Source: Candidatus Thioglobus sp.
GTDB taxonomy: Bacteria > Pseudomonadota > Gammaproteobacteria > Arenicellales > UBA868
DNA: 64,000 bases
Reading direction: 5' to 3'
NCBI GenBank assembly: GCA_004212795.1
Contig: SHBR01000002.1
Coordinates: 23,958-87,957, forward strand
Below, one piece after another: positions 38,516 through 46,468 of this stretch (its first letter is position 1; every line of letters begins with the position of its first letter). The notes under the pieces were generated by a model. The model made no database searches and was not told where the DNA came from. It worked only from the letters and a program-made list of their open reading frames with translations. Both the position numbers and the translations under genes were made by a program.

Positions 38516-39532
38516 ATGAGTTCAACGGAAAACACGAGTTTTAATATTCGGGTGTCATCCACCGATGAGGTGTTTGAGGTTCCGGAAAATCGAACTATTC
38601 TTCATGTTTTATATGAGAATGGTTATGAAGTTCCGCTCGACTGCTCCAATGGCCGTTGCGGAACGTGTCGCACGCGCTATCTCTCTGGCGAGATCGATCA
38701 TCGAGACACTGTGCTCGAAGACTCTGAGCGTTCCGAGTTTCTAACGGTCTGCGTCTCGCGCGCGACTGGCGGAGAAGTCGTTCTTGATCTAGAGCCTCCG
38801 GTCGATTCTGCTCAACCCATCACTCGACCCATCGCGGTTGTTAACGCGCCGGTGTGTGTTGCATGCCTAAATTGCGTTCGATTCTGCACGTTTGGCGCAG
38901 CCAAAATTGATAGTGGTCTGGTGGGGGTTGGCGGGATTCAAGGTGCCGCGATAGTTGATAAAGACTTATGCACGGGCTGTGGATTATGTGCCGCAGCTTG
39001 TCCTACCGGGGCAATCGAAATGAACGTCAATACTCATGACGTTGTTATTGATGCCATCGACCAGTTCAGTTCCGGACCGGCTTCTCAGCAAAATCAACTG
39101 AGTAAGACCCCGAACTCCCTGGTCATTTTTACCTGTCCGCAATCTCGGCAGACCACACAAGAAGTTTGCGCTGGTGATTCCCGTACCAAAAAGACCGATG
39201 CTGCGACCCATGTTGTTGAAGTCCCCTGTTCCGGACGAGTCGATACGCTCCAACTTATGCATGCTTTCGAGAAAGGCGCTGATGGGGTAATGGTGGTCGG
39301 GTGTCAGCCCGGGGAGTGTTACTTTAATACCGGAAATTTACATGTGAAACAGCGGGTAGACCGTGTGTCACAATGGCTGGATAAATGCGGCCTTCATCAT
39401 GACCGGGTCATGATGACTCACATCACGCCCGGCGATCACAAGGGACTTGCCAACGCCATCGACTCACTGGATGAAAAGACTCAAGCGCTCGGATTAACCC
39501 CGCTGCATCAAGTCGCGACTGACAGAACATAA
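38516..39532 (+). CDS. Fused iron-sulfur protein: plant-type [2Fe-2S] ferredoxin + two [4Fe-4S] motifs + MvhD/hydrogenase-iron-sulfur-subunit-like domain
   Basis: CSNGRCGTC...C; CVACLNCVRFC; CTGCGLCAAACP; VEVPCSGRVDTLQLMHAFEKGADGVMVVGCQPGECYFNTGNLHVKQRV. Confidence 0.88.
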   Translation: MSSTENTSFNIRVSSTDEVFEVPENRTILHVLYENGYEVPLDCSNGRCGTCRTRYLSGEIDHRDTVLEDSERSEFLTVCVSRATGGEVVLDLEPPVDSAQPITRPIAVVNAPVCVACLNCVRFCTFGAAKIDSGLVGVGGIQGAAIVDKDLCTGCGLCAAACPTGAIEMNVNTHDVVIDAIDQFSSGPASQQNQLSKTPNSLVIFTCPQSRQTTQEVCAGDSRTKKTDAATHVVEVPCSGRVDTLQLMHAFEKGADGVMVVGCQPGECYFNTGNLHVKQRVDRVSQWLDKCGLHHDRVMMTHITPGDHKGLANAIDSLDEKTQALGLTPLHQVATDRT

Positions 39533-39615: not shown

Positions 39616-40773
39616 ATGATTGTTGCCGAACAGAAGAAGTTGGAAGATATTCAGCGAATGCTGAAAGGTAAAAAAAAGGTTCTCACGGTAGGATGCGGAA
39701 CGTGCGTATCCGTATGTTTTGCCGGAGGACAAAAAGAGTCCAGCGCAATGGCGGCGACCTTGCGAACGGCGGCAGCGGCTAATGGCGAACAAATCGAAGT
39801 TGACGAAGCGACGGTTCAGCGACAGTGCGTGCAAGAGTTTGTAGCACCACTGGAGGAAAATATAGAGGAATATGACGCTGTATTGTCAATGGCCTGTGGT
39901 GTGGGTGTGCAAACACTTGCCGAAAAATATATGGACACCCCAATCCTTCCCGGACTCGATACTAACTTTATGGGCCAACCGACCGAACCGGGGGTGTGGG
40001 AGGAGCGGTGCGTCGGTTGTGGAAATTGCGTCTTGGAGTACACCGGAGGCTTATGCCCGATTACCCGCTGCCCTAAACAACTGCAAAATGGTCCGTGCGG
40101 CGGATCAGAGGGTGGCATGTGTGAAGTCGATCCCAACATTCCTTGCATCTGGTCGAAAATCTGGACATTGTTAGACCGTCAGGGCATTGCTGACACACTA
40201 ATGGATATTCAACCCCCCAAAGACTGGTCGACAAGCCGGGGCGGCAGTATGCGGCGAGTGGTCGTCAGCAGCGACCTCAGCCAACAAAGTGCCCGGGCTG
40301 CCGGCGACAAAATCAAGGCAGAAAATACAACACCGACCGCCCCTGCCACGGATTCAACAGCACCCTCTTCCACACCTGACCACGAGTCGGTTCTTGACGC
40401 CTCCTGGCATCAGGTCTGCAGCCTTTCGGATCTCCCAGAAGGCAAGCTTCGTCGATTTACCGTTTCTGGAGTCGACGTCATGCTGACCAACCTCGGGGAC
40501 TGCATCCGCGCTTTTCCACCCACCTGCCCACACCTCGCCGAGCCCTTAATCGACTCTGGCGTTCTGAGGGATGGGTTACTGACCTGCACAAAACATTTGT
40601 GGAAATGGGATCTACGCAGTGGAGAAATGAAAGGCGCCGCCGAGCGGCCCGTTGAGATGTATGAATCACAACTTAAAAACAATAATGTCTTCGTCAGAAT
40701 GGAATCGGAAATTATTTATGATTACGAAGAAGATGATGACCTCGATGAAGACGACTTCTTTAACGCAGATTGA
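39616..40773 (+). CDS. MetV-like methylenetetrahydrofolate reductase C-terminal/iron-sulfur protein fused to a Rieske [2Fe-2S] domain
   Basis: MetV motif CVGCGNCVLEYTGGLCPITRCPKQLQNGPCGGSEGGMCEVDPNIPCIW; Rieske CPH-x17-CTKH (CPHLAEPLIDSGVLRDGLLTCTKHLWKWDL). Confidence 0.87.
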   Translation: MIVAEQKKLEDIQRMLKGKKKVLTVGCGTCVSVCFAGGQKESSAMAATLRTAAAANGEQIEVDEATVQRQCVQEFVAPLEENIEEYDAVLSMACGVGVQTLAEKYMDTPILPGLDTNFMGQPTEPGVWEERCVGCGNCVLEYTGGLCPITRCPKQLQNGPCGGSEGGMCEVDPNIPCIWSKIWTLLDRQGIADTLMDIQPPKDWSTSRGGSMRRVVVSSDLSQQSARAAGDKIKAENTTPTAPATDSTAPSSTPDHESVLDASWHQVCSLSDLPEGKLRRFTVSGVDVMLTNLGDCIRAFPPTCPHLAEPLIDSGVLRDGLLTCTKHLWKWDLRSGEMKGAAERPVEMYESQLKNNNVFVRMESEIIYDYEEDDDLDEDDFFNAD

Positions 40774-40784
40774 GTAACAATCCC

Positions 40785-41780
40785 ATGGCAACCAATCCTG
40801 AAATTCAGTCACAAGAAGCTCAAAAGTCAGGAAGCAATCTTGAGCGGGTACTCGCCGCAGGCCACTTTGCTGTAACTGGAGAACTCGGTCCTCCGAAACA
40901 TATGGATCAGGCTTTCATTGACCGGAAAATAAATCTTCTAAAAGGTGTCGTTGATGCCGCAAACGTCACTGACAATCAAACAGGCATTGTTCGGCTGAGT
41001 AGTATTGCGACCGGTATCTATATGGCCCAACAAGGTTTAGAGCCCGTGATTCAGATGACCTGCCGCGACCGAAACCGTCTTGCCATTCAAAGTGACCTAA
41101 TGGGCGCCTATTTTCACGGGATACGAAACGTCCTGTGTCTTTCCGGTGACCATCAATCTTTCGGAAATCATCCCGGCGCCAAAAACGTCCAGGACATTGA
41201 TTCAATGCAACTCATTCAAATGATTAAAGAGATGCGGGACAAGAACCAGTTTCAGTGTGGTGATGAAATTAAAGGCGGCGGGCCGAAACTCCTTATCGGT
41301 GGTGCAGGCAGTCCCTTTTCAGAACCAATCTCCTTTCGACCCCTTCGAATCGCCAAAAAAATGGCGGCGGGCGTTGACTTTATTCAAACCCAAATGATTT
41401 TTGATATGGACATTTTTAAACAGTTCATGGCAAAGCTGGTTGATTTAGGCGTCACGGAAAAGGTCCATATCTTGGCAGGTATCGGGCCATTAAAAAGCAG
41501 TCCAATGGCACGATTCCTGAACGATCAGATTCCTGGAATCGTGATTCCGGATGAACTGCTTAAGCGTATGGACGGAGCCGTTCAGGGAATCGATGAAAAC
41601 GATAAAGACGCACGCCGTGATGCCTGGCGCGCTGAAGGTCAAAACATCTGCATTGAACAGATCGAGCAGCTTCAGGAAATCGAGGGCGTGGCAGGCGTAC
41701 ACATTATGGCGATCGAATGGGAAGCCGCGATAAGACCAATCGTCGAACGAGCGGGCTTATTCCCCCGACCACAAGTCTAA
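40785..41780 (+). CDS. metF: Methylenetetrahydrofolate reductase, MetF family (acetogen-like short form)
   Basis: FAVTGELGPPKHMD, VTDNQTGIVRLSS, VIQMTCRDRNRLAIQSDLMGAYFHGIRNVLCLSGDHQSFG, FIQTQMIFDMDIFKQFM; TTG at 40770 is an alternative start overlapping the upstream stop. Confidence 0.9.
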   Translation: MATNPEIQSQEAQKSGSNLERVLAAGHFAVTGELGPPKHMDQAFIDRKINLLKGVVDAANVTDNQTGIVRLSSIATGIYMAQQGLEPVIQMTCRDRNRLAIQSDLMGAYFHGIRNVLCLSGDHQSFGNHPGAKNVQDIDSMQLIQMIKEMRDKNQFQCGDEIKGGGPKLLIGGAGSPFSEPISFRPLRIAKKMAAGVDFIQTQMIFDMDIFKQFMAKLVDLGVTEKVHILAGIGPLKSSPMARFLNDQIPGIVIPDELLKRMDGAVQGIDENDKDARRDAWRAEGQNICIEQIEQLQEIEGVAGVHIMAIEWEAAIRPIVERAGLFPRPQV

Positions 41781-45412: not shown

Positions 45413-46468
45413 CTAACTCCTGGGATCGATGAAGTGATGCTGCTTAAGATAATTAATAATCGTATCCGATAGCGCCTCTGCCTGACAATCCACTGTCGAG
45501 AGCGTGATCTGTGGCGCCACAGGCACCTCATAGTCGGAGTCAATGCCTGTGAAATTCTTCAATACGCCGTCGCGTGCCTTTTTGTATAGCCCTTTGGGAT
45601 CCCGGCTTTCGCATAACGCCAGCGGCGTATTCACAAATACCTCAATAAAGTGCGCCGAGCCAATTAAGTCACGTGCCATCTGCCGCTCTGCCACAAAAGG
45701 TGAGATAAAAGATGTAATCACAATCAGTCCGGCGTCGGTCATTAACCGGGCCACTTCAGCAACTCGCCTGATATTCTCAACCCGGTCACCATCGGTAAAG
45801 CCAAGATCCCGGCACAGGCCGTGACGCACATTATCGCCATCAAGAAGGTAAGTATGTTTCCCGCTAGCGTGCAACTTTTGCTCTAAATGATCGGCAATTG
45901 TTGATTTTCCTGACGCCGACAATCCAGTTAACCAGATCACGCAAGGTGTTTGTTTATTTCTTGTAGAACGGGCTTTCTGATCGACCTTGGTTGGCTGCCA
46001 AACAATATTTGTTGCTCGACGCAAAGAAAAGTGCACGACCGCAATACCAATCGAGTTCCCTGACGCTGAGTCCTTGAATACGAAGATAGTGCCCGGATCA
46101 GTTTCCAAAAAAATCACATTGCGGTCGGTTGAAATCTTGCAGTAAGCCATCTCCCCGCTCGCAAGCGTTTTGGCCGCTTGGTGAGAATGATCATCCGGCT
46201 TAATACGATAAGTCAGATCGGTAATCCTTGCATCAAAGGAATCGCCGTTTGATACCACTCGATAGCTGCGTTCTGGCAGCATGGGCGAATCACTTAACCA
46301 GTGAATATAAATCGAAAACTGATCAGATCGCTGTTGCGGTTCGTGACGCTCTGATTGACTGGCGTCCGTTGCCGACTCGTCCACTGAGCCCGTCTCTAGA
46401 CTTCTGGCCAGAGCCATCAATTGATCGATCCGTTCCGCCTCGGATATGCTGTGATCTTTGTTATTCAA
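45413..46468 (-). CDS. cysC: Adenylylsulfate kinase with N-terminal CysN-like C-terminal beta-barrel (GTPase-less CysNC)
   Basis: [18 protein letters not shown]...[32 protein letters not shown]...[26 protein letters not shown] then [44 protein letters not shown]. Confidence 0.9.

Follow-up and report, generated by a model that had tools for sequence, protein, structure and literature searches.

A MetV-Rieske ferredoxin fusion in a reduced Hdr-type operon of Candidatus Thioglobus: a new variant within the MetVF methylene-THF reductase family

The fused gene and its operon

The window considered here is a 64,000-nucleotide stretch from a draft genome of Candidatus Thioglobus sp., one of a group of uncultured marine bacteria, in which a single ORF on the forward strand (39616-40773) runs from ATG to TGA and encodes 385 residues, with no internal stop in the window translation. 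The ORF is intact: MetV is joined through a disordered linker to an oxygenase-type Rieske ferredoxin that ends in an acidic tail (Table 1). A sequence-only reading of the locus had proposed a MetV cysteine pattern, a Ser/Thr/Pro/Ala-rich linker of about 50 residues, a full CxH-x17-CxxH Rieske motif, and an acidic end, and each of these elements was recovered. A Pfam profile search of the ORF placed both domains in one protein, with PF12225 matching residues 112-205 (E 5.5e-34; 116.2 bits against a curated cut-off of 23 bits) and PF00355 matching residues 263-341 (E 6.3e-12; 45.7 bits against a cut-off of 20.3 bits). All 13 cysteines of the MetV pattern are present (C27, C30, C34, C71, C94, C132, C135, C138, C147, C152, C161, C169, and C177); in the alignment they are invariant among the fused copies and also occur in nearly all unfused MetV sequences. 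The retained pattern is consistent with a MetV part predicted to bind iron-sulfur clusters and zinc and to form the MetVF heterodimer, and membership of the MetV family is further indicated by a MetF gene directly downstream, in the window as in its relatives. A PDB sequence search with the MetV part found no relative.

Within the linker, 25 of the 44 residues are Ser, Thr, Pro, or Ala. The Rieske ligands are arranged as C304-P-H306-x17-C324-x2-H327, an exact form of the motif that arises in 0.02% of shuffles of the fused protein. The tail, 23 residues long, contains 13 Asp or Glu. An AlphaFold model of the fusion displays two folded regions, MetV and Rieske, together with a disordered linker and a disordered tail (mean pLDDT 70, falling below 50 at residues 203-257, in the linker).

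Table 1. Features of the fused ORF and of the genes adjoining it (window coordinates).
Feature	Position	Strand	Evidence
N-terminal [2Fe-2S] domain of the upstream gene, phthalate-dioxygenase-reductase type	38516..38791	+	2pia, E 4.7e-24
HdrA remnant, C-terminal two-[4Fe-4S] module	38828..39067	+	48.75% identity to HdrA residues 1472-1551 of 1557
FlpD/MvhD-type domain, 3' end of the upstream gene	39122..39532	+	PF02662, E 4.8e-30, residues 203-326
MetV part, residues 1-218	39616..40269	+	PF12225 match; 13/13 cysteines of the MetV pattern
Linker, residues 219-262, Ser/Thr/Pro/Ala-rich, disordered, fast-evolving	40270..40401	+	Composition, codon changes, pLDDT
Oxygenase-type Rieske [2Fe-2S] ferredoxin domain, residues 263-362	40402..40701	+	PF00355; PDB sequence and fold matches
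Acidic tail E(I)xYDYxxDD..DDFF + stop, residues 363-385	40702..40773	+	Alignments; common to standalone MsmC-type ferredoxins
MetF, methylene-THF reductase flavoprotein	40785..41780	+	PF02219, E 3.7e-37; likely ATG 40785 (mechanically called ORF starts at TTG 40770)

In high-potential Rieske proteins of the bc1 type, the two loops around the cluster hold additional cysteines that form a disulfide (PMC12445004). No further cysteines are found in the corresponding loops of the fusion, CPHLAEPL and CTKHLWKW, and the fold matches are oxygenase ferredoxins; the bc1 type was rejected on both grounds. The PF00355 match, the CxH-x15-17-CxxH spacing, and the absence of disulfide cysteines are those of an oxygenase-type Rieske ferredoxin. 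The domain was matched in PDB sequences to T4moC, BphF, and the toluene dioxygenase ferredoxin, and a fold search returned dioxygenase ferredoxins first (1fqt, 5bok, and 2qpz), suggesting a domain of the low-potential, oxygenase-ferredoxin kind. PDB entry 8jng, named as a methanesulfonate monooxygenase ferredoxin, was given no weight, its source being an algal photosystem complex.

Among the sequences found, the closest belong to standalone Rieske ferredoxins, 117-125 residues long and with the same acidic end. Against MsmC-type ferredoxins, the fused domain is 43-50% identical and shares the acidic tail. The branch uniting the two has a support of only 66/93 in a weakly supported tree of a short domain, and the link to MsmC is instead drawn from identity, tail, and the co-occurrence described below. 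The Rieske domain and its tail are thus likely to be MsmC-derived. A NirD or general Rieske protein was ruled out, the acidic tail being absent from NirD and the other Rieske ferredoxins compared. The ferredoxin of an msm-like cluster on a Methylobacterium nodulans plasmid ends in DDDDDFFK.

Beyond what the sequence-only reading had described, the tail appears to be part of an MsmC-like module, and the upstream gene bears a second oxygenase-type [2Fe-2S] domain joined to an HdrA remnant. In that upstream ORF (38516-39532, forward strand), the remnant sits between the [2Fe-2S] domain, for which the runner-up to 2pia scored E 5.3e-16, and MvhD. When an HdrA of 1557 residues (L084) was compared with the window, residues 1472-1551 were the sole stretch to find a match; the HdrA flavin domains and HdrCB had none within the window. 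Whereas Hdr-type (type IV) methylene-THF reductases, known from Moorella and Sporomusa (PMC9430772), join MetVF to HdrA, HdrB, HdrC, and MvhD, the window operon retains MvhD and the C-terminal module of HdrA, and is related to that type by descent without being a full member. HdrB-like CCG-domain matches in the source genome lie only in a lactate-utilisation-like gene on contig C67 (judged by eye) and not in an Hdr operon. The FCCxxC motif of MvhD reads FTCPQS in the window, FACPQC in most of the genus, and FCCPSA in G321, a genome of another family; given this reduced motif, the MvhD cluster may be altered or lost.

Every fused copy falls in a single clade (100/100) of the MetV tree, within the MetV proteins of HdrABC-MvhD-type reductases; this points to one fusion event, now present in two families. 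The Rieske-free relatives compared (G021, G037, G083, G089, G371, G438, Anaerolinea L049, and Chloroflexi L050) have MetV adjoining long HdrA, MvhD, MetF, and HdrBC-like genes, to the extent that the contigs cover them. The operon is thus a stripped form of the Hdr enzyme, which has lost the flavin and disulfide machinery and gained two oxygenase-type [2Fe-2S] modules.

Distribution and genomic company of the fusion

The full-length fusion was found in nine species genomes of the genus, the source genome included; the eight others (G002, G007, G009, G013, G014, G016, G018, and G019) carry it at 76-81% identity. The junction is also visible in G003 and G010, where contigs are broken, while G017, whose sequence ends at residue 202, was not counted among the demonstrated fusions. 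Outside the genus, samples of the class and phylum (369 and 399 genomes) yielded the fusion in G321 only, a member of another family and order of the Gammaproteobacteria, at approximately 62-64% identity. All four cluster ligands of the Rieske domain are invariant in the aligned fused copies, G321 included, and the gene order Fdx-FlpD, MetV-Rieske, MetF was observed in every locus with readable flanks, the G321 operon among them. A contig scan of 84,980 species relied on exact short peptides, which distant fusions would escape, and a plasmid search found no fusion.

That two ORFs were merged by an assembly error or frameshift can be dismissed as barely conceivable: the source genome is indeed a fragmented draft (82 contigs, 78% complete), but homologous fusions, 62-81% identical, are present across many distinct assemblies, and G321, from a second gammaproteobacterial family, carries its copy in an operon of the same three genes. 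When the window is compared with locus L039, the codon differences amount to 122 synonymous and 14 non-synonymous in the MetV part, 46 and 26 in the Rieske part, and 10 and 29 in the linker, a pattern that suggests constraint on the Rieske domain but none on the linker. The junction is therefore genuine, and the impression of the sequence-only reading that no such fusion had been described held for the library of papers searched, in which no account of one was found. The architecture is a new variant within the MetVF methylene-THF reductase family.

The genomes that carry the fusion tend to encode methanesulfonate monooxygenase. The source genome has a complete msmABCD set on contig C5, in the order alpha, beta, ferredoxin, reductase, and its MsmA has the spacer of 26 residues in the motif CXH-X26-CXXH, a motif reported to be specific to the MsmA of this enzyme (PMC4433239). 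Its standalone ferredoxin (L059 9174-9551) lies in the msm cluster, with a TauE-type exporter and a PanB-like gene alongside, an arrangement comparable to Filomicrobium, in which genes for 3-methyl-2-oxobutanoate hydroxymethyltransferase and a sulfite exporter neighbour msm genes (PMC4433239). The PanB-like (ketopantoate hydroxymethyltransferase-like) gene (L059 6029-7051) occupies the same place in other msm clusters, with 87-91% identity between distant genomes, and may encode an enzyme that handles formaldehyde or methylene-THF when methanesulfonate is broken down.

Of the 12 genomes in which the fusion was demonstrated, 11 have a detected msmA, and the remaining one, G016, is 73% complete; G017, where the fusion is cut off, has msmA as well. 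By comparison, it was found in 4 of 28 tested genomes without the fusion, and none of six tested genomes with an unfused Hdr-type MetV had it. With G017 counted as a fusion, the association gives a Fisher p of 3e-6 across 41 genomes and 0.004 within the genus, values weakened by shared ancestry; only G321 is clearly a lineage apart. There, the msm cluster lies approximately 11 kb from the fusion operon.

Sources of methyl-THF are also encoded. Two copies of DmdA in the source genome score 534 and 533 bits against NF009133 (curated cut-off 410 bits), and these putative DMSP demethylases would supply methyl-THF. Almost every genome of the genus encodes DmdA, and so does G321; as it occurs with and without the fusion, it fails to discriminate fusion genomes. 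A GcvT/DmdA-like methyltransferase (L042 744-1949, reverse strand; same place in L043, L044, and L046) lies some 3 kb upstream of the operon in other species of the genus and scores 170 bits, below the DmdA cut-off. The source genome (2.04 Mb) further holds 12 GCV_T and 15 Rieske-domain matches above the Pfam cut-offs, a richness that speaks of a strongly oxygenase- and demethylation-based lifestyle.

A second MetF, paired with a short MetV, is encoded in one of the source genome's clusters, that of a corrinoid methyltransferase. This cluster (contig C67; L083 6726-13395) comprises an MtgC-like corrinoid protein, a DUF1638-like gene, the short MetV (163 residues), the second MetF, a methyl-THF:corrinoid methyltransferase, and an AcsV-like activator, in a gene order matching a Paracoccus methylovorus plasmid (L107). 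Elsewhere in the window, an ORF at 45413-46468 (reverse strand) encodes an APS kinase (CysC) after an eEF1A-C-like domain and has no CysN GTPase domain; truncation is probably not the explanation, given a homologue of similar length (L048 5259-6368).

Direction and destination of the methyl-THF electrons

A rebuilt Hdr-type reductase, made up of MetF, MetV-Rieske, and the Fdx-HdrAtail-MvhD protein, is best read as a methyl-THF oxidase that would feed an oxygenase-type acceptor via its Rieske domain, a reading given about even odds. Methyl-THF released by DmdA and other demethylases would reduce the FAD of MetF, and the electrons would then travel by way of the [4Fe-4S] clusters in MetV to the low-potential Rieske centre, held on its tether and equipped with an acidic docking tail. 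The acceptor after that would be of the oxygenase type and most likely a Rieske oxygenase; MsmAB is the leading candidate because of the common ferredoxin core, the common tail, and the co-occurrence. Loss of the HdrABC flavin and disulfide modules, absent from the operon, would have removed the bifurcating route and left oxidation free of NAD+. The three proteins may form a complex, and the Fdx-HdrAtail-MvhD protein may act as a second exit or relay.

Oxygenase-type Rieske ferredoxins have potentials near -150 mV. Oxidation of methyl-THF is uphill to NAD+, as the methylene/methyl-THF couple lies at -200 mV and NAD at -320 mV (PMC8760232), and transfer to an oxygenase-type Rieske centre would be near level or downhill. 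The sequence-only reading had put forward the Rieske centre as a higher-potential exit for methyl-THF electrons than the clusters of acetogens. A Rieske exit is likely, and fits the presence of DmdA, the loss of HdrABC from the operon, and the second MetF in the genome; "higher-potential" stands relative to acetogen ferredoxin only, the domain being apparently of the low-potential oxygenase kind.

Direct coupling to methanesulfonate monooxygenase is plausible. Against an oxidase wired to an oxygenase, it should be considered that msm clusters have an MsmC and MsmD of their own and do not require a second electron supply, that four genomes possess msm without the fusion while G016 has the fusion with msmA undetected, and that DmdA is also common where the fusion is missing. 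The weak Rieske tree and the statistics inflated by ancestry weigh in the same direction, and the reading does not account for the Fdx-HdrAtail-MvhD protein.

Two other readings are each considered unlikely. In the first, the system would work reductively, with an MsmD-like NADH-dependent reductase donating through the Rieske domain or Fdx to MetV and MetF to provide methyl-THF for methionine. Oxygenase reductases normally donate to such ferredoxins, an MsmD-type reductase is encoded, and MetVF of acetogens runs in this direction with no NADH site of its own (PMC9430772, PMC8760232). Such a costly route is, however, less needed where a second MetF and short MetV are present and DmdA, probably together with the corrinoid system, already yields methyl-THF.

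The second would have the Rieske domain pass methyl-THF electrons not to an oxygenase but to the respiratory chain or a soluble carrier, for instance a cytochrome or quinone reductase. This type of enzyme is tied to an electron chain in the membrane of Sporomusa, and of its subunits there MvhD was the one most strongly associated with membranes (PMC9430772); a respiratory acceptor would also account for the fusion without msmA in G016. Nevertheless, the Rieske domain resembles the low-potential oxygenase type and not that of bc1, its tail matches oxygenase ferredoxins, and the operon contains no respiratory genes. Far less credible is the suggestion that the Rieske domain and tail mainly dock the reductase to methanesulfonate monooxygenase, so that formaldehyde is captured as methylene-THF with the cluster off the electron path; the msm co-occurrence and the long flexible linker would suit it, yet the four cluster ligands, invariant even in G321, would be unnecessary for docking alone.

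The oxidation of DMSP-derived methyl-THF in aerobic marine bacteria is usually ascribed to a reversed MetF, despite the potentials of -200 and -320 mV; SAR11 MetF, for example, was predicted to oxidise methyl-THF with reference to a Methylobacterium enzyme (PMC3160333). A MetV carrying an oxygenase-type Rieske acceptor would lessen this problem of potential, and the architecture suggests that methyl groups of marine sulfur compounds are oxidisable without passing electrons first to NAD. Were the proposed oxidase to hold true, the burning of one methyl group, for instance from DMSP, would directly pay for activating the O2 with which another C1 compound is attacked, and the breakdown of DMSP and of methanesulfonate, both large in the marine sulfur cycle, would be joined by one electron wire. 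The operon also shows how an anaerobe-type Hdr complex can be pared down and refitted for aerobic life, in a system testable with purified parts.

Relation to known systems

It is only tentatively that a fifth MetVF type is proposed, one in which methyl-THF is oxidised and a Rieske oxygenase, namely methanesulfonate monooxygenase, receives the electrons with no involvement of NADH. MetF, MetV, MvhD, and the C-terminal cluster module of HdrA are held in common with the type IV MetVF-HdrCBA-MvhD of Moorella thermoacetica and Sporomusa ovata (PMC9430772). In contrast to that enzyme, the window operon is without HdrB, HdrC, and the HdrA flavin domain, its MetV is fused to a Rieske domain, and its HdrA remnant is fused to MvhD and to a [2Fe-2S] domain of the oxygenase-reductase type. 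The type III MetVF-RnfC2 of Acetobacterium woodii, as described in PMC9430772, is likewise a MetVF core with an extra redox module that sets the electron partner; RnfC2 is a separate, NADH-oxidising subunit, whereas in the window the module is the Rieske domain, fused to MetV and lacking an NADH site. The short MetV and MetF of the P. methylovorus plasmid and of the corrinoid cluster in the source genome also place PF12225 beside MetF in aerobic proteobacteria, but this MetV matches only the C-terminal part of the protein and is accompanied by neither Rieske nor MvhD. Finally, MsmC (PMC4433239) shares with the fusion the core PPxCPHxxEPLxxSG...LTCxKHxWxW, its length, and its acidic tail; it is a free protein within msmABCD, whereas its counterpart in the fusion is the C-terminal domain of a MetV encoded in a MetF operon.
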